This document shows positions 54,224-64,000 of a stretch of DNA of 64,000 bases, one piece after another. Numbering within the stretch: the first letter of the stretch is position 1; every line of letters begins with the position of its first letter. A model generated the notes under the pieces. That model was given only the letters and a program-made list of their open reading frames with translations. It did not search any database and was not told the origin of the DNA. The stretch covers positions 1-64,000 of the forward strand of contig JAFUPV010000024.1 in NCBI GenBank assembly GCA_017472605.1, written 5' to 3'. The stretch is from Lachnospiraceae bacterium (GTDB lineage Bacteria > Bacillota > Clostridia > Lachnospirales > Lachnospiraceae). Made by a program: the position numbers and the translations under genes.

Positions 54224-57200
54224 GTGATTGTACCAAACTATTATGAGGACTTAAAAAAAATGCATGAAAACACGCTGGATCCGCGGGCTTACTATGTGCC
54301 GGCATCCAGGCGGCTTTTGGGGACATACACAGACAGGAGTCAGTCAGACCGGCTCCAGGTGCTGAACGGTCAGTGGCATTTTCGTTATTACAGAAGCATT
54401 TGGGAGCTGCAGGAACCGTTTTATGAAACTGCTTATCCGGTGGAAGACATGGAAACGATTCCTGTTCCCGGTGCATGGCAGAACTTTGGCTATGACAGTC
54501 ATCAGTATACCAATGTCAGGTATCCGTTCCCCATTGATCCACCCTATGTGCCTGCGGACAATCCGGCAGGAGCCTATGTTTATGAATTTCAATATCAGAA
54601 GGACGAAGCGGCGCCGAGAGCATATCTGAATTTGGAAGGTGTGGATTCCTGTTTCTATCTGTGGGTAAACGGGGAATATGTGGGGTACAGTCAGGTATCC
54701 CATTCGACCAGTGAGTTTGATGTGACAGATCAGTTAGTGAATGGAAAGAACCGGCTGGCGCTGCTTGTGCTGAAATGGTGTGACGGAAGCTATCTGGAGG
54801 ATCAGGATAAGTTTCGCATGAGCGGGATTTTTCGGGATGTTTATCTGCTGAAACGGCCTGCAAAAGCAGTGTATGATTATTTTACAATAACCACACTGGA
54901 AGACGGTCAGGCAATCGTGTGTGTGAATGCCAGATTTCTGGAGAAGGAAACGGACGCAAGAATTTCCATTTATGACGCGGGAGGGAATTTCTGTACGGAG
55001 TCACTGTTGAAGAGAAAAGAAGTGATGGCAGAAGAAAATGCAAAAAAAGCGGTTTTGGATCAAATGCAGCCGTTGGACAGTCGGCAGGCTGCGCGGAAGG
55101 AAGAGCAATTGGGATGGAACCGGGAGAGCTACACACACGAGGCAAAACTTACTCTGGTTAATCCGAAGCTGTGGAATCCGGAGCAGCCTTATCTGTATAC
55201 ATTGGTTATCGAAACGGCGGACGAGGTCATTACAGATCGGATTGGTGTGCGTGAGATCACTGTAGAAAATTGCATAGTTTTGATGAATGGAAAGCCGGTT
55301 ACATTCCGCGGTGTCAATCATCATGATTCCGATCCGGTAACAGGACCGGTGACGAGTCCGGAACAGATTATCCGGGACCTGGTCATGATGAAGCAGCACA
55401 ATTTCAATGCGGTACGTACAAGTCATTACCCAAGTGTTCCTTATTTTTATCAGCTTTGTGACGAATATGGATTTCTGGTAATGGATGAAGCTGACAATGA
55501 AAGCCATGGAACACAGGCTCAATATCTGGGGAATGCAGCATGGGAAAAGAGAGCGTCTCTCTGGAACGAGCGGATTGCGGATAATCCGGAATGGATTGAG
55601 CCGACTTTGGATCGGACTCGTCTGTGTGTACACCGGGACAAGAACCGTCCCTGTGTGGCAGTCTGGTCCATGGGAAACGAATGCGCCTATGGCTGCACCT
55701 TTGAGGCTGCGCTGCGATGGACGAAGAGGTTTGATCCGTCCCGCCTGACCCACTATGAAAGCGCCTGCTATCACAGCGGCAGAAGGAAGTATGATTTTTC
55801 TGATATTGATCTTTACAGCTGCATGTATCCGTCGATGGAGGAAATCAGGGAGTATCTTGGCAGCGAACCGGACAAGCCGTTTCTGATGGTGGAATATTCC
55901 CATGCCATGGGAAACGGACCGGGCGACCTGGAAGATTACTTTCAGATGATTGAGAAACATGACATCATGTGCGGTGGGTTTGTCTGGGAATGGTGCGATC
56001 ACGCGGTTTATAAAGGGCAGTCAGAGGACAAAAAGGCAGTTTATTTTTATGGCGGCGATCATGGAGAGGCGCTTCATGATGGAAACTTCTGCATGGATGG
56101 TCTGGTTTATCCGGACAGACGCCCTCATACCGGTCTGATGGAATACAAAAATGTATATCGCCCGGCGCGGATTGTTGACTATGATCCGGCAAGCGGCGTT
56201 CTGGTTCTTCGAAATCAATTGGACTTTACTGATTTGCAGGATTATCTGCAGATTTGCTATGAAGTGACATGTGATGGAGCTGTTCTTGAGAACGGAACCG
56301 CGGCGCTAAATGGGAATGGAAAGCCGCACGGGACTGAAACGGTGATTCTGCGCCCGGAGATTCCAGGCAGGGGAAAATGTTTTCTGAGACTTCGGTATCA
56401 GATGAAGCAGGGGACAGCACTGATTCCGCAGGGGTATGAGCTGGGATTTGAGGAAATTTTGCTGAGCAACGAGGATAGAAGGAATCAGACGGCGGTGCGG
56501 CTTCTGGCATCGGAAAAGAAAACGGCAGACTGGCCGATGCCTGCAATCAGCGAAAACGGATGCACACTGCTGATCAAAGGTGGATTAAGAACTGGTTCGT
56601 TCAATTATATATATGACAGAAGAACTGGTGTATTCAGCCAGTTGTCTTTGGACGGAAAGCGGATTCTGGATCGGTCGATGGAAGTGAACATTTGGAGAGC
56701 ACCAACGGACAACGACAGAAAACTGAAACAGCAGTGGTATGAGGCGGGGTATCATCGAACGATGACGAGGGCATATCGGACGGAATGGAAACAGAAGGAG
56801 AATGGAATTGAGATTTGCTCCCATTTGGCAGTGCTTGCAGACTCTGTTCAGCGGATCCTGAACATTGATGCGGTGTGGAGCGTGAGTAATCAGGGAGAGA
56901 TTCATGTGACCATGGCAGTCAGGAAGGACAGCGAATTCCCGCAGCTGCCCCGGTTTGGTCTTCGCCTGTTTCTTAACAAAGACTTTGAGCAGGTGACATA
57001 CTGCGGCCTGGGACCGGGAGAAAGCTATGCGGATAAATGTCAGGCAGCCAGTTATGGGAATTACTGCGCCAATGTGACTCAGCTGCATGAGGACTACATT
57101 CGTCCGCAGGAAAACGGCAGTCACTGCGGATGTGACTATGTGATGATTGGTGATGGCAGGCGGATTTTTGCAGCAGTCAGTGAACGGCCCTTTTCCTTTC

Positions 57201-57427
57201 ATGCATCTGTGTATACACAGGAAGAGCTGACAGAGAAGCGGCACAACTATGAACTGATTCCGTGCGGCAGTACCGTGCTTTGTCTGGACTATGCTCAGAA
57301 TGGAATCGGATCTGCCAGCTGTGGACCAGAACTGGCACAGCAGTATCGGCTGGATGCAGAGCATTTTACTTATACAGTGAAATTGATTCCCTGGTGGAGG
57401 GGAGAGGGGGAAAAAACGTATGAATGA
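54224..57427 (+). CDS. GH2 beta-galactosidase (LacZ-type)
   Basis: 1067-residue cytoplasmic beta-galactosidase with all five LacZ domains: jelly-roll (with LNGQWHFRYY), immunoglobulin-like, TIM barrel, second immunoglobulin-like, and the C-terminal beta-sandwich (WRAPTDND ... GLGPGESYADK). The acid/base is E486 in MGNECAYG and the nucleophile E557 in VEYSHAMGN. The start is GTG 54224 with AAGGAG upstream. The 3' end overlaps the GPH symporter gene by 8 bp, so uptake and hydrolysis are translationally coupled. Galactoside is the expected substrate, though other beta-glycosides are possible. Confidence 0.93.
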   Translation: MIVPNYYEDLKKMHENTLDPRAYYVPASRRLLGTYTDRSQSDRLQVLNGQWHFRYYRSIWELQEPFYETAYPVEDMETIPVPGAWQNFGYDSHQYTNVRYPFPIDPPYVPADNPAGAYVYEFQYQKDEAAPRAYLNLEGVDSCFYLWVNGEYVGYSQVSHSTSEFDVTDQLVNGKNRLALLVLKWCDGSYLEDQDKFRMSGIFRDVYLLKRPAKAVYDYFTITTLEDGQAIVCVNARFLEKETDARISIYDAGGNFCTESLLKRKEVMAEENAKKAVLDQMQPLDSRQAARKEEQLGWNRESYTHEAKLTLVNPKLWNPEQPYLYTLVIETADEVITDRIGVREITVENCIVLMNGKPVTFRGVNHHDSDPVTGPVTSPEQIIRDLVMMKQHNFNAVRTSHYPSVPYFYQLCDEYGFLVMDEADNESHGTQAQYLGNAAWEKRASLWNERIADNPEWIEPTLDRTRLCVHRDKNRPCVAVWSMGNECAYGCTFEAALRWTKRFDPSRLTHYESACYHSGRRKYDFSDIDLYSCMYPSMEEIREYLGSEPDKPFLMVEYSHAMGNGPGDLEDYFQMIEKHDIMCGGFVWEWCDHAVYKGQSEDKKAVYFYGGDHGEALHDGNFCMDGLVYPDRRPHTGLMEYKNVYRPARIVDYDPASGVLVLRNQLDFTDLQDYLQICYEVTCDGAVLENGTAALNGNGKPHGTETVILRPEIPGRGKCFLRLRYQMKQGTALIPQGYELGFEEILLSNEDRRNQTAVRLLASEKKTADWPMPAISENGCTLLIKGGLRTGSFNYIYDRRTGVFSQLSLDGKRILDRSMEVNIWRAPTDNDRKLKQQWYEAGYHRTMTRAYRTEWKQKENGIEICSHLAVLADSVQRILNIDAVWSVSNQGEIHVTMAVRKDSEFPQLPRFGLRLFLNKDFEQVTYCGLGPGESYADKCQAASYGNYCANVTQLHEDYIRPQENGSHCGCDYVMIGDGRRIFAAVSERPFSFHASVYTQEELTEKRHNYELIPCGSTVLCLDYAQNGIGSASCGPELAQQYRLDAEHFTYTVKLIPWWRGEGEKTYE

Positions 57428-58790
57428 GAAGAGATATTTACGATGGTATAATAAGGTGGGATATGGCTCAGGTGATGTTGCGGGAAATGTGGTGTATGCC
57501 TTTCTGTCATCCTTTGTCATGATTTATCTGACCGATACGATTGGACTGAATTCCGGTATTGTTGGAACGCTGATGATGTTTTCCAAGATTTTCGACGGAG
57601 TCACAGATGTTTTCTTTGGCGCACTGATTGACCGGACACATACAAAAATGGGAAAAGCACGTCCCTGGATGCTCTGGCCATATTTTGGCTGCGCGGCAAT
57701 GATCGCGGCAATCTTTGCAATTCCGGAAAAACTGGGGGACGCTGCCCAGTATGCATGGTTCTTTATCGCATATACAGCGCTGAATGCAATTTTCTATACA
57801 GCCAATAACATTGCCTATTCTGCGCTGACAGCGCTGATCACGAAAAACAGCAGCGAACGGGTACAGATGGGATCAATCCGGTTTATGTTTGCCTTTGGAA
57901 CCAGCATGCTGATTCAGACAATTACAGTAGACGCGGTGGAGATGCTGGGCGGCGGAGCACAGGGCTGGCGCATGATTGCAATTATTTATGCAGTCATCGG
58001 TCTGATCGTTAATACGCTCTCTGTATTTTCCGTGAAGGAATTGCCGGACGAGAGCGGCATGTCTGATACCTCGGAAATCGGGGAAAAAACAGGGGAGAAA
58101 TACCGCCTTGGGGAAGCGGTAAAACTGCTGGCCGCAAATAAATATTACATCATCATCTGCTGCATCTATATTCTGAGTCAGATTTTTACAGCGACTACCA
58201 ATATGGGAATTTATTTTACAAAGTATGTGCTTGGAGACGCGTCTCTACTGGGTGCGTTTTCCATGGCGATTAACATTCCAATGATTGCCGGACTTCTGCT
58301 CACTCCTCATCTGGTGAAACGCTGCAGAGGTATGTATAAACTGAACAGGAACGGATATGTATTGGCAACCATTGCCCGCGGCGGTGTTGTTGCGGCCGGA
58401 TACATGCAGAATCTGCCACTGATGCTTTTCTTTTCCGCTCTTGCATCCATTGGTATGAGTCCGCTTCAGGGGGATTTGAACGCACTGATCGCTTCCTGTT
58501 CGGAATACACTTGGCTTACAACACGCAAGCGGATTGACGGAACGATGTTTTCCTGTACATCCCTTGGCGTAAAGATCGGAGGCGGAATCGGTACTGCGCT
58601 GGCAGGATGGCTTCTGGCGGCCAGTGGTTTTGTGAATGGTTCACCGATTCAGCCGGATTCCAGCATTCGGATGCTGTACTTCATGTATCTGTGGATCCCC
58701 ATGATCATCAATCTAATCATTACCGTGCTTCTTTCCAAACTGAAGGTAGAGCAGGCAAATGAGAAGCTGATTAGTCAAAAGAAAGCATGA
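57420..58790 (+). CDS. GPH-family glycoside:cation symporter
   Basis: 456-residue, 12-TM transporter of the glycoside-pentoside-hexuronide:cation family (MFS). It begins YNKVGYGSGDVAGNVVYAFLSSFVMIYLTDTIGLN and has FGALIDRTHTKMGKARPWMLW, the diagnostic loop. It probably imports the glycoside cleaved by the overlapping GH2 enzyme, under the divergent AraC-type regulator. Confidence 0.93.
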   Translation: MNEKRYLRWYNKVGYGSGDVAGNVVYAFLSSFVMIYLTDTIGLNSGIVGTLMMFSKIFDGVTDVFFGALIDRTHTKMGKARPWMLWPYFGCAAMIAAIFAIPEKLGDAAQYAWFFIAYTALNAIFYTANNIAYSALTALITKNSSERVQMGSIRFMFAFGTSMLIQTITVDAVEMLGGGAQGWRMIAIIYAVIGLIVNTLSVFSVKELPDESGMSDTSEIGEKTGEKYRLGEAVKLLAANKYYIIICCIYILSQIFTATTNMGIYFTKYVLGDASLLGAFSMAINIPMIAGLLLTPHLVKRCRGMYKLNRNGYVLATIARGGVVAAGYMQNLPLMLFFSALASIGMSPLQGDLNALIASCSEYTWLTTRKRIDGTMFSCTSLGVKIGGGIGTALAGWLLAASGFVNGSPIQPDSSIRMLYFMYLWIPMIINLIITVLLSKLKVEQANEKLISQKKA

Positions 58791-59031: not shown

Positions 59032-59166
59032 TTGTTTCTGCATTCAGGTGCATGTATCAGTGACAGTTCGGACGGATTGTTCCTGTATCCAGGAACATGT
59101 GTCGGTAACAGTTTGGTCAAATTGCTCCGATATCGGGGCGAATGTGCCGGTGGCATGTCCAATCAG
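59032..59166. repeat. Dispersed 45-bp repeat, three units
   Basis: Units at 59032, 59077 and 59122, each beginning TTGTTTCTG/TTGTTCCTG/TTGCTCCGA. They keep an open frame into the MATE gene with a 15-residue period, but the true start is downstream. Confidence 0.8.
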
Positions 59167-59199
59167 ACAGCAGGAAAGAGAGAGAGGAGTAAGAAAACG

Positions 59200-60513
59200 A
59201 TGGAGATCCGTTTCCGCAAATTTATCCACTACACAATTTTAAGCATACTTGGAACACTTGGCGTATCCTGCTATATTCTCGCCGATACCTTTTTCGTTTC
59301 CAGGGGAACCGGATCAGCCGGTCTGGCAGCGCTGAACCTGGCAATTCCTGTCTACAATTTTATCCATGGAACGGGTCTGATGCTGGGAATGGGCGGTGCA
59401 ACGAAATTTTCTGTCTGCAAGGGCAGCAACGATCGGGAGCGGATTGACCAAATCTACACCAATACGGTGTATCTGGCATTTCTGTTTTCTCTGCTCTTTC
59501 TTCTGATCGGCGTGTTTGGAGCCGGAACGCTTGCCGGACTGCTTGGAGCCGACCAGGAGGTATTTGCGATGACGAAGACCTATCTGAAATGGCTGCTGAT
59601 TTTTTCACCGGCATTCATCATGAACGATGTTCTTCTTTGTTTTGTACGGAATGATGACGGACCGCAGCTGTCCATGGCTGCCATGCTGGCAGGCAGCTTT
59701 TCCAATATTATCATGGATTATATTCTGATTTTCCCCTGTCAGATGGGAATTCTTGGAGCCGTGCTCGCAACCGGTTTTTCGCCGGTGATCAGCATGCTCA
59801 TGATGCTTCCGCACTGGACGAGAAGACAAAACAGCTTCCACCTGGTGTTCGTAAAACCGGATCCGGAGATGATCCGGCAGGATATCTCTATCGGATTTCC
59901 ATCGCTGGTAGGCCAGCTTTCATCCGGGATTGTGATGATTACCTTTAACGGGCTGATTCTTGGATTAACAGGAAACATTGGAGTGGCAGCATATGGTGTG
60001 GTCGCCAATCTTTCGCTGGTTGTGACTGGTGTTTATACAGGAATTGCTCAGGGTGTGCAGCCGCTGCTTGCGGATGCCTATGGAAGGGGACAAAAAGAAG
60101 AGATATCGTTTCAGTTTCGCTGCGCAATGGTCACAGCTGCTGGCATTTCCCTGCTGCTGTATCTTGTTACAGCAATCCTGGCAGAACCGATTACCGGAAT
60201 CTTTAACAGCGAACAGGATCCACGGCTCCCGTGCATTGCCGTGGAAGGCCTGAGAATTTATTTCCTTTCGAATCTGGCAGTCGGATACAATACGGTGCTC
60301 GCGATTTACTTTACCTGCGTGGAAAAGACACTTCCTGCACATGTTCTTTCTCTGCTGCGCGGATTGGTTCTGATCGTTCCGCTGGCTGTTCTGATGGCAT
60401 CACTGTGGGGAATGACAGGAATCTGGCTGGTGTATCCGGTGACAGAATTTGCTGTCGGTGTGTTGGGGGAGATTTTGAGAAGGAAAACAAATAGAAGGAA
60501 GATTCAGAAATGA
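59200..60513 (+). CDS. MATE-family efflux transporter
   Basis: 437-residue protein with 12 transmembrane segments in two homologous halves, of the multidrug and toxin extrusion (DinF/NorM/MepA) family: FIHYTILSILGTLGVSCYILADTFFVSRGTGSAGLAALNLAIPVYN and PSLVGQLSSGIVMITFNGLILGLTGNIGVAAYGVVANL are typical. It exports cationic compounds using an ion gradient. ATG 59200 has AGAGAGGAG upstream; the frame is open further 5' only because it runs through the 45-bp repeats. Expression may depend on the upstream promoter-terminator leader. Confidence 0.9.
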   Translation: MEIRFRKFIHYTILSILGTLGVSCYILADTFFVSRGTGSAGLAALNLAIPVYNFIHGTGLMLGMGGATKFSVCKGSNDRERIDQIYTNTVYLAFLFSLLFLLIGVFGAGTLAGLLGADQEVFAMTKTYLKWLLIFSPAFIMNDVLLCFVRNDDGPQLSMAAMLAGSFSNIIMDYILIFPCQMGILGAVLATGFSPVISMLMMLPHWTRRQNSFHLVFVKPDPEMIRQDISIGFPSLVGQLSSGIVMITFNGLILGLTGNIGVAAYGVVANLSLVVTGVYTGIAQGVQPLLADAYGRGQKEEISFQFRCAMVTAAGISLLLYLVTAILAEPITGIFNSEQDPRLPCIAVEGLRIYFLSNLAVGYNTVLAIYFTCVEKTLPAHVLSLLRGLVLIVPLAVLMASLWGMTGIWLVYPVTEFAVGVLGEILRRKTNRRKIQK

Positions 60514-60708: not shown

Positions 60709-60801
60709 ATGAGCACATACGAAGTATTAAGCCTGTTGTTTCTGGGTGGTACTTTCCTCATTGCGTTGCTTGCCTATATTGGAAACAATAAGCAAGGATA
60801 A
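60709..60801 (+). CDS. Holin-like type I toxin peptide
   Basis: 30-residue peptide beginning MSTYEVLSLLF, then a glycine-containing hydrophobic helix (to about residue 24) and the polar end NNKQG. This matches the 'putative holin-like toxin' family of type I toxin-antitoxin systems, whose peptides begin M-x-TYE-x-LSL and insert in the membrane. GGGAGG lies 8 bases before ATG 60709; ATG 60703 is too close. The SD is locked in an 8-bp hairpin. An antisense promoter and terminator on the other strand supply the antitoxin RNA. Confidence 0.82.
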   Translation: MSTYEVLSLLFLGGTFLIALLAYIGNNKQG

Positions 60802-60895: not shown

Positions 60896-60958
60896 ACGTT
60901 AACTATAACACAGTTATCGTCCGATTGCAAGGGCAAAATGTTTGAAAAGAGGAAAGCG

Positions 60959-63900
60959 ATGAAAAAGAAATTGGGCAAGCGGTTCTGGGCTGCCATGCTG
61001 ATCTTCGGCTTAGTGGGTCAGATCGCCTGGGTCGTGGAAAACATGTATTTTAACGTGTTCATCTACAAGATGTTCCGGGCATCCGCGGCGGAAATCTCAC
61101 TGATGGTAAGCGCAAGCTCCGTTGCGGCAACGGTTACTACGATATTAATGGGCGCGCTGTCCGACCGGATCGGAAAGCGGAAGCTGCTGATCTGCGGCGG
61201 CTACATCCTGTGGGGCATTTCCATTTTAAGCTTTGCACTGATCCGTGTGGATGTTCTGACTCCCTTTGCCGGTTCTGCGTCTGCGGCGGCATCAATGGGC
61301 GTCACGCTGGTCATTCTGATGGACTGTGTCATGACCTTTTTCGGTTCCACAGCCAACGATGCCGCCTACAACGCCTGGCTGACGGACCAGGGAAGCGAGT
61401 CGGATCGGGGACGGATTGAAGGCTTTAATTCCATGATGCCGCTTTTGTCCATCCTGGTTGTGTTCGGCGGTTTCATGGGATTTGATCTGGAACAGCCGGA
61501 AAGCTGGACCATAATCTATCTGATTATCGGCGGCGTTGTGCTTGTAATTGGTCTGCTGGGAATCGTTTTGATTGAGGAATCGCCGGTGCTGCAAAAGGGT
61601 GTGATCAGGAAGAAGAAAAAGGCGGATTCGGAGCGCGTGATTGCGGAAAACATAGATACGGAGCGCACAGGTGAGGCTCAGTCTCATGTGAATCCGGAGA
61701 CCTCCTACTGGGCCACTGTTCGATACAGTTTCCGGCTTTCTGTTCTCCGGGAGAATAAGCTTCTCTACGCTGTGCTTGGTGCCTTCGCGCTCTTTGGAAT
61801 TTCAATCCAGACTTACATGCCCTATCTGATTCTCTACTATGAGCAGTCGCTGGGGATGACGGACTATGTGCTGATCATGGCACCGGCAATTGTGCTGGCG
61901 GCGGCGATTACCGCCTGGTACGGTCGTGTTTATGACATGCAGGGCTTCAAAGGCAGTGTAATTCCTTCGGTGGCCATTCTGATGATCGGATATGTGATCC
62001 TGTTTTTTACCAGGACAAAAGTACCGGTATTTATTGGTTCTCTTCTGATGATGACCGGTTACATGACAGGCATGGCAGTGTTCGGAGCTATGATCCGCGA
62101 CCGGATTCCGCAGAACCGCGCCGGTCAGTTCCAGGGAATCCGCATCATCGGCCAGGTACTGATCCCTGGCATCATTGGTCCTGCCATCGGTGCCTTTGTG
62201 CTTCGCGACGCAGAGCAGATTGTCAATCAGGATGGAACCACGTCGTTCCTTCCTCACGAGGGAATCTGGGCAGCCGCCTTTGGAGCAGCGGTTGTTCTCT
62301 GTGCGGCGCTGGTGTTCATTTTTCGCATGGTCCGTCTCGGCCATCATGAGCTTTGGAGTGAGAGCGGAGAGGAGCTGATGGGGGAAGAAATGACCGGGAA
62401 GGAAGGAGACCGCAGTACTGAGCCGGTTTCCTGGAGCGAACATCCCCGCCCGCAGATGAAGCGTGAAAAATGGCAGACGCTGAATGGTGTCTGGAAGCTG
62501 AACGGACAGGATATCCGTGTCCCGTTTCCGCCTCAGTCCCAGCTGTCCGGTTATCAGGGAAAGGTGGGAGCGCAGCTGGAATATGAACGTACCTTTGCTG
62601 TGCCGTCTTCCTTCAACCAGGAACGGATCCTTCTCCATTTCGATGCGGTGGATCAGATTACCGAGATCTGGTTAAACGGTGAGAAGGTTGGCCGTCATGA
62701 AGGCGGATATCTGCCGTTCGCTTTTGATGTGACGGACCGGATTCGAAGGGATCAGGAAAACTGCCTGCTGGTAAAGGTGACGGACCGGCTGTCTCTGGAC
62801 TATCCCTACGGAAAACAGTGTAAACGCCGCGGCGGCATGTGGTACACGCCTGTCAGCGGAATCTGGAAGCCGGTATGGCTGGAAAATGTCCCGGAACGCT
62901 ATATTCAGAACATAAAGATAACACCGAATCTGCGTGGAATTGACCTTACCGTAGAAGGTGTGGAGGAATTGGACGCGGTTGTTTCGCTGGAAAACGGTGA
63001 GACAGTGACCGTGCATTTTGGTCAGGATGGAGCGGGAAGAAGAACCTGCAGCGGAAGGATTGAGCTTGCTGGCCGGATCCTTTCGGATGGCAGCCGCTAT
63101 GAGCCAACGCTCTGGACGCCGGAGACGCCCCATCTGTATCCGATAATAATTACTTCTGGAAGCGACCGCGTGGAGAGCTATTTTGCGCTGCGCACCATCG
63201 GAATCGAAAATCGTGACGGCATTGCCCGTGTCTGCCTCAACGGCGAACCAATTTTCATGCATGGAGTGCTGGATCAGGGCTATTTCTGCGATGGAATTTA
63301 CCTTCCTGCCCGGGAGGAGGAATATGACCGTGATGTGCTTCGAATGAAAGAGCTGGGCTACAACATGCTTCGCAAGCACATCAAAGTCGAGCCGGAAGCG
63401 TTCTACTACGCCTGCGACCGCCTTGGTATGCTGGTGATGCAGGACATGGTCAACAACGGCCCGTACCATTTCATTCAGGAGACTGCGCTTCCAACCTTTG
63501 GATTCAAGAAAAAGAGGGATGACCGCGGAAAACAAAACGACCGGAGACAGCAGATTTTCCTTGCCCACATGGAAGAGACCATTGCGGATCTGTATAACCA
63601 TCCGTCCATTGTTGCATACACGATTTTCAATGAAGGATGGGGACAGTTCCACAGTGACGCCATGTATCGTCGCGCAAAGGAACTGGATCCGACCCGCCTG
63701 GCAGATTCCACTTCCGGCTGGTTTGCCCAGATGGAAAACGATTTTGACAGCGAACACATCTATTTCAAAGTGATCTCGCTGACGCCGGGAAAACGTCCTC
63801 TGTTTGTGACGGAATGCGGCGGATATTCCATGCCGGTGGAGGGACACTGTTACAGTAAATACAATCAGTATGGCTATGGCGCGTGCAAAAACAGCGATGA

Positions 63901-64000
63901 ACTGACCGGACAGATTGAAGCCATGTACCGGCAGATGATTCTGCCGTCGATTTCAGCCGGTGTGTGCGGCTGCATCTATACCCAGCTGAGCGATGTGGAA
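60959..64000 (+). CDS. MFS transporter fused to a GH2 glycoside hydrolase (incomplete at window end)
   Basis: One uninterrupted frame of at least 1014 codons. Residues 1-457 form a 12-TM MFS sugar transporter (GQIAWVVENMYFNVF, GALSDRIGKRK loop, basic central loop near residues 206-245). After a charged linker (about 458-490), a full-length GH2 enzyme begins (EHPRPQ...WQTLNGVWKLNG) with jelly-roll, immunoglobulin-like and TIM-barrel domains. The acid/base is E892 in IFNEGWGQF and the nucleophile E952 in VTECGGYS. The last bases encode CGCIYTQLSDVE, the usual end of the barrel, so about 50-100 residues are missing. With an even number of helices the hydrolase faces the cytoplasm. AGAGG precedes ATG 60959. 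A GGAGAGGAG before in-frame ATG 62378 could also start a free hydrolase. Confidence 0.9.
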   Translation, partial: MKKKLGKRFWAAMLIFGLVGQIAWVVENMYFNVFIYKMFRASAAEISLMVSASSVAATVTTILMGALSDRIGKRKLLICGGYILWGISILSFALIRVDVLTPFAGSASAAASMGVTLVILMDCVMTFFGSTANDAAYNAWLTDQGSESDRGRIEGFNSMMPLLSILVVFGGFMGFDLEQPESWTIIYLIIGGVVLVIGLLGIVLIEESPVLQKGVIRKKKKADSERVIAENIDTERTGEAQSHVNPETSYWATVRYSFRLSVLRENKLLYAVLGAFALFGISIQTYMPYLILYYEQSLGMTDYVLIMAPAIVLAAAITAWYGRVYDMQGFKGSVIPSVAILMIGYVILFFTRTKVPVFIGSLLMMTGYMTGMAVFGAMIRDRIPQNRAGQFQGIRIIGQVLIPGIIGPAIGAFVLRDAEQIVNQDGTTSFLPHEGIWAAAFGAAVVLCAALVFIFRMVRLGHHELWSESGEELMGEEMTGKEGDRSTEPVSWSEHPRPQMKREKWQTLNGVWKLNGQDIRVPFPPQSQLSGYQGKVGAQLEYERTFAVPSSFNQERILLHFDAVDQITEIWLNGEKVGRHEGGYLPFAFDVTDRIRRDQENCLLVKVTDRLSLDYPYGKQCKRRGGMWYTPVSGIWKPVWLENVPERYIQNIKITPNLRGIDLTVEGVEELDAVVSLENGETVTVHFGQDGAGRRTCSGRIELAGRILSDGSRYEPTLWTPETPHLYPIIITSGSDRVESYFALRTIGIENRDGIARVCLNGEPIFMHGVLDQGYFCDGIYLPAREEEYDRDVLRMKELGYNMLRKHIKVEPEAFYYACDRLGMLVMQDMVNNGPYHFIQETALPTFGFKKKRDDRGKQNDRRQQIFLAHMEETIADLYNHPSIVAYTIFNEGWGQFHSDAMYRRAKELDPTRLADSTSGWFAQMENDFDSEHIYFKVISLTPGKRPLFVTECGGYSMPVEGHCYSKYNQYGYGACKNSDELTGQIEAMYRQMILPSISAGVCGCIYTQLSDVE

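Follow-up and report, generated by a model that had tools for sequence, protein, structure and literature searches.

The first 64,000 nucleotides of a Lachnospiraceae bacterium contig (assembly GCA_017472605.1; the window, which is the start of the 84,371-base contig C69) end in a reading frame in which a membrane transporter continues into a glycosidase, raising the question of whether this is one real gene and, if so, what its product might do. An earlier note on the window, made from the letters alone, had followed a single frame from ATG 60959 to the window end and read it as a sugar transporter and a glycoside hydrolase family 2 (GH2) enzyme on one polypeptide. We found the frame open throughout to 64000 and, by translating the continuation of the contig, closed only by a TGA at contig positions 64103–64105. 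The fusion gene spans 60959–64000 on the forward strand, as do all the parts of it described below, with its last 34 codons and the TGA lying past the window (to contig 64105), and its full product has 1,048 residues, 34 of them beyond the window end. An alternative in-frame ATG lies upstream at 60938; we favour ATG 60959 because AGGA, by eye a probable ribosome-binding site, stands at 60950–60953, 5 nt before it.

A fused frame conserved in other genomes

The product has three parts: a transporter of the major facilitator superfamily (MFS) with 12 transmembrane helices in the model (residues 1–462, 60959–62344), a charged linker running from the twelfth helix to the GH2 N-terminus (residues 463–494, 62345–62440), and a complete GH2 glycosidase with sugar-binding, Ig-like and TIM-barrel domains (residues 495–1048, of which 495–1014 lie inside the window at 62441–64000), the same succession that had been traced codon by codon through the junction. 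In the window protein, Pfam finds MFS_1 (PF07690) at residues 31–408 with 104.4 bits (cut-off 33.4), and Glyco_hydro_2_N, Glyco_hydro_2_N2 and Glyco_hydro_2_C all above their cut-offs, the GH2 domains starting at about residue 538 (PF02837, 59.1 bits, cut-off 28; PF02836, 46.6 bits, cut-off 21). The middle GH2 domain, PF00703, scores 20.5 bits, slightly under its cut-off of 23, and exceeds that cut-off in three relatives scanned singly. MFS_1 was matched at E ≤0.001 in all 46 fused proteins scanned. An AlphaFold2 model of a full-length relative 69% identical to the window protein (L037; 46 sequences) has a mean predicted local distance difference test score (pLDDT) of 86.3 and a predicted template modelling score (pTM) of 0.76; its 12 helices lead, by way of a short helix in the linker, to an enzyme with complete beta-sandwich and TIM-barrel domains.

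An assembly or sequencing error could have joined two separate genes, and the earlier note had named a stop or frameshift at the junction of all relatives as the mark of such an error. From a scan of a genome collection, the best 80 of 497 confirmed relatives were kept. In 64 of these loci a single frame holds the complete fusion; 3 have an incomplete fusion, 8 are interrupted between the halves by exactly one in-frame stop and 5 have the GH2 half alone. The junction stop in 8 of 80 relatives is what an error would have in its favour; against it, the full fusion recurs in 64, including the cultured strains Bacterium D16-50 (L040), Acetatifactor muris DSM 23669 (L050) and [Clostridium] fimetarium DSM 9179 (L060). 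Because 64 of the 80 hold both halves in one frame, chance is excluded; the architecture is conserved, the fusion is not an assembly error, and we assign that explanation a negligible probability. Two of the partial fusions end at a contig edge, and the third, L061, has an in-frame TGA at a conserved MFS tryptophan (~1853–1856; a Clostridia metagenome-assembled genome record). Reading L061 with table 4 (TGA as Trp) lengthens some of its other frames too, and this could be either a recoded genome or an error. The full fusion also occurs on a 14.7-kb contig labelled Treponemataceae (L055), a possible transfer or mis-binning.

Evenly drawn genome samples gave an intact fusion in 13 of 397 genomes for the window's family, in 6 of 391 for its class (the window's own and five from three other families) and in 1 of 398 for its phylum (the window's own genome alone); the samples and the 80 loci share some genomes (for example G609 and L108), and their counts are not additive. 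Relatives from a plasmid search had the GH2 alone, and none of the records matched 80% of the query at a single locus. Across both the family and the class sample, 24 of 25 transporters of the clade are linked to the same GH2: 19 fused (18 intact, 1 with an interrupted frame), 3 adjacent, 1 with one stop between and 1 in a decayed copy. A decayed copy in the same family (L205, G365:C42:10877-12048) runs from the start of the MFS half directly into a piece of the GH2, with stops present.

Selection on the halves and the changing junction

Neither half appears decayed, as the earlier note had held. Residue counts were made over 73 distinct fused relatives. The two catalytic glutamates are intact: the acid/base Glu892 of the NE motif (FNEGWGQ; codon 63632–63634) is Glu in 73 of 73, and the nucleophile Glu952 (TECGG; codon 63812–63814) in 72, with a gap in the remaining one. 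N891, R805 and H807 of the GH2 half are likewise invariant, as are E27, N28, D69, R74, D122, N133, D134 and E154 of the MFS half; R150 has one exception. The ratio of nonsynonymous to synonymous substitution rates (dN/dS; Nei–Gojobori, 11 close pairs, values rough with dS saturated at >1 in several) was computed for each part. For the MFS half, nine pairs gave 0.03–0.09, one gave 0.32 and one was undefined; for the GH2 half, eight gave 0.04–0.16, one gave 0.30 and two were undefined. By these ratios, strong purifying selection acts on both halves in most pairs. Over the 28 codons of the linker, dN/dS ranged from 0.02 to 0.98, mostly above both halves. Linkers differ in sequence as well as in length, which is about 10–57 residues among relatives whose MFS alignment got to residue 459 or further.

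The eight split loci show how the junction may change. Each has one in-frame stop between the halves (TAA in four, TAG in two, TGA in two) and an ATG within 9 bases, in the GH2 frame; since being in frame is part of how this class was defined, and long in-frame matches are what the scan prefers, we claim no enrichment of abutting in-frame pairs. Read-through of these stops is not supported, as all three kinds of stop occur and an ATG follows closely after each. Elsewhere the transporter and GH2 genes overlap out of frame (L173, L174, L181 and L182), and in L169 an adjacent transporter frame lies behind a longer antisense frame. The linker of the fusion resembles the N-terminal extension of separate GH2 proteins (LYTxxGExL...PWxxYPRPQ). 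From this likeness and the layout of stop and ATG in the split loci, the loss of one stop would be enough to fuse the genes and the gain of one beside an existing Met enough to split them; losing or gaining one stop between abutting transporter-then-GH2 genes is thus the likeliest way for the fusion to have formed and a way for it to be reversed. A tree of 87 transporter–GH2 pairs requires no fewer than 6 switches between fused and unfused, and well-supported branches force 4 of these; a GH2 tree of 129 rows (including L070_A and L088_A, a remote second GH2) has 17 such switches, 11 of them forced. Both trees are quick, unrooted LG+G4 trees on which gain and loss look alike; the repeated changes on both lend no support to a single origin. 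The split L064, which nests in a fused clade (branch label 99*), is most simply read as a recent fission.

The window gene's linker itself holds an AGGAG and, just downstream, an in-frame ATG (Met474), together at 62370–62380, which in this strain could serve as an internal start for a free GH2, making the fusion one of two products. An ATG with such a Shine-Dalgarno-like motif occurs in the 40 residues before the GH2 in 7 of 73 fused relatives, compared with 12.3% of 1,530 control windows from the same genes, and is not enriched; 31 of the 73 have no ATG there at all, and common Glu and Gly codons also yield AGGAG. These counts do not support a conserved internal start, and we consider one confined to this strain very unlikely.

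Relationships of the two halves

Searching the PDB by sequence with the GH2 half, we found 7sf2 (324 bits), 9j6n (270), 9j6m (268) and 7xyr (184), with the next entry at only 81. Foldseek returned them in identical order, with target TM-scores of 0.87 (7sf2), 0.84–0.85 (9j6n and 9j6m) and 0.78 (7xyr), the rest being at most 0.73 among the matches listed. The second and third are a beta-D-galactofuranosidase of Streptomyces sp. JHA19. PMC12243196 places 9J6M in GH2_18 and 7XYR in GH2_19, the subfamilies of its group III, which comprises beta-D-galactofuranosidase and alpha-L-arabinofuranosidase activities and in which the loop-8 Trp is replaced by a conserved Thr. In the fusion we infer the match to this Thr at T1008 (YTQ), an alignment with the window's LacZ having left its loop-8 Trp motif out of register with T1008; of 73 fused relatives, 71 have Thr at this position, one has N and one a gap, and Thr also occupies it in 7sf2, 9j6n, 9j6m and 7xyr. 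R805, E892 and E952 align with the window's LacZ, and these three together with N891 align with 7sf2 and 9j6n. The LacZ-type domains Bgal_small_N and LacZ_4 were not found in the fusion by Pfam and were found in the neighbouring gene at 54224–57427. Sequence and fold alike put the GH2 half nearest to group III of GH2; it is not an ordinary beta-galactosidase, and a furanoside substrate can be predicted at the level of the group, GH2_18 or GH2_19. The expectation of beta-glycosides is amended accordingly: the nearest solved kin are group III furanosidases, not the beta-galactosidase of the neighbouring pair. PDB entry 7sf2 is titled beta-galactosidase, yet it ranks nearest the galactofuranosidase group here; its title may be a default annotation.

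The MFS half has the 12-helix fold and loop motif A, which in MFS proteins is of the GxxxDRxGRK type, and modelled alone from the window protein it reaches a pLDDT of 86.4 and a pTM of 0.86. Neither a sequence search of the PDB at E 0.1 nor a profile search at 0.01 turned up any kin for it. The GPH:cation symporter model TIGR00792 is not among the fusion's matches at E 0.01 or among the 17 NCBIfam families matched in relatives, and PF13347 matches 9 of the 46 relatives scanned, at E 1.6e-6 at best, and not the window protein. NCBIfam models matched in 31 relatives include a multidrug-resistance model (TIGR00880, 22 of 31), a metabolite/H+ symporter model (23 of 31) and Bcr/CflA (11 of 31), while Foldseek and VIA fold matches scatter across the superfamily, with the drug antiporters NorA and SotB among the VIA top. 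Such mixed matches support no named transporter subfamily. Of the label of sugar transporter given in the earlier note, the MFS part holds by Pfam; the sugar cargo is putative, the weak NCBIfam matches falling as often on efflux or metabolite transporters as on sugar transporters. We read the MFS half as a putative sugar importer because transporters of its clade are partnered with the GH2 in 24 of 25 cases.

These same matches raise the reverse possibility of detoxification, in which the glycoside split by the GH2 has come in some other way and the MFS half expels the released aglycone or sugar. The efflux-family matches and the two drug antiporters fit export, as does the absence of conserved catabolic neighbours. 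On the other side, the efflux matches lie far under their cut-offs and the metabolite/H+ symporter model matches as many relatives; fold matches inside one superfamily are uninformative on direction; and exo-acting GH2 enzymes are usually catabolic. We give export a slim chance.

Probable role and comparison with known systems

The fusion is probably a self-contained uptake-and-hydrolysis protein, with a furanoside as the most likely cargo. Both termini of a 12-helix MFS transporter are cytoplasmic and no signal peptide separates the halves, which would place the GH2 at the inner face of the membrane. The transporter would import a small glycoside, with beta-D-galactofuranose or alpha-L-arabinofuranose as its most probable terminal residue; the tethered GH2 would remove the terminal furanose on arrival, and this removal would keep the internal concentration of the glycoside low. 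Of the reading in the earlier note, the enzyme does sit on the transporter's own chain; import with cleavage of the glycoside as it enters, proposed there, would be the most likely way in which that chain works. The gene surroundings offered no usable clue to the substrate: the commonest neighbour cluster occurs in 6 of 80 loci, and recurrent neighbour blocks appear only among a few close relatives. Such absence of conserved neighbours fits a self-sufficient unit that requires no partner gene.

How closely the halves work together is a separate matter. The MFS exit could feed the GH2 site directly, with hydrolysis pulling transport, in a coupled translocator-hydrolase for furanosides; this would be the hydrolytic counterpart of the phosphotransferase principle, in which the sugar is captured chemically on entry. 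Both the coupling and the analogy seem to us rather unlikely, and the variable, faster-evolving linker speaks against tight docking. That linker and the persistence of split and adjacent two-gene versions would also suit a fusion that provides anchoring or a 1:1 ratio only, its GH2 acting on a general cytosolic substrate and the halves exerting no mutual influence; the pTM of 0.76 of the full-length model may hint instead at a fixed arrangement, and we regard anchoring alone as doubtful too.

Several observations weigh against an uptake-and-hydrolysis protein. GH2 halves without the fusion's transporter are common (42 of 129 rows of the GH2 tree and 5 of the 80 kept relatives), and one genome, G696, has a transporter of the clade with no GH2 within the fetched 14 kb, its GH2 lying on another contig; the joint is therefore not indispensable. 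The pair L113/L114 has a dN/dS of about 0.3 for both halves, and the undefined ratios (one MFS pair, two GH2 pairs) and the saturated dS in several pairs soften the signal of selection. The NCBIfam matches of the MFS half, all far under their cut-offs, are not specific to sugar carriers, and the enzyme half may have shifted to a different substrate.

If the proposed role is right, these gut Clostridia hold sugar uptake and the first cleavage on one chain, making transporter–enzyme coupling directly testable; related genomes, in which the two parts are fused, parted by one stop or encoded as two genes, would offer natural comparisons. It would also point to galactofuranose and arabinofuranose glycosides, a cargo rarely considered for gut Bacillota. 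Catalogues that drop proteins with transmembrane helices ahead of secretion analysis could miss this architecture; PMC12243196 filtered out such proteins in its own secretion analysis.

Around the fusion gene, a MatE family transporter gene (PF01554) lies directly upstream at 59032–60513 (+). Between the two, a very small gene at 60709–60801 (+) matches Hol_Tox, a putative holin-like toxin (PF16935, E 6e-11), and is perhaps part of a type I toxin-antitoxin unit. Downstream, the fusion's TGA shares bases with the start codon of an MraW-type methyltransferase gene (TGATG; L002 4106–5179, contig C69 64105–65178), beyond which a frame at L002 5664–7055 (contig C69 65663–67054) resembles, by eye, a group II intron reverse transcriptase.

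The earlier note knew of no characterised transporter–GH2 fusion, and full-text searches of open-licence PMC papers gave no description of a transporter–glycosidase fusion among the matches listed, which does not prove its absence from print. The closest solved chain is the Bacteroides cellulosilyticus GH2 of 7sf2, which differs in being stand-alone and whose activity is taken here from the entry title alone. ORF1110, the beta-D-galactofuranosidase of Streptomyces sp. JHA19 (9j6m, 9j6n), aligns with the whole GH2 half (residues 4–544 of 558) and shares the NE motif, the nucleophile Glu and the RKHIKVEP stretch; its solved chain has no transporter, and at ~30% identity its substrate may differ. 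Its subfamily is also mostly secreted, whereas the fusion's GH2 half would be tethered inside (secretion signals in ~80% of GH2_18 against ~10% of GH2_19 members, according to PMC12243196).

Within the window, the pair at 54224–58790, confirmed by domain matches as a LacZ-type GH2 and a GPH symporter, likewise encodes a transporter and a GH2 side by side. The pair makes two proteins, and its members belong to another MFS subfamily (TIGR00792, MFS_2) and another GH2 type (Bgal_small_N, LacZ_4). LacS-type lactose carriers, MFS sugar carriers with a C-terminal EIIA domain of the phosphotransferase system (PTS), also bear an extra cytoplasmic C-terminal domain, regulatory in LacS and a hydrolase here; no PTS domain is among the Pfam matches of the fusion or of 46 relatives. 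In LplT-Aas fusions, an MFS lysophospholipid importer is joined to an acyltransferase that uses its cargo. Importer and cargo-processing enzyme share one chain there too, although the cargo is a lipid rather than a glycoside and both the enzyme and the MFS subfamily differ. Both parts of the fusion are of known kinds, and what is new is their joining.

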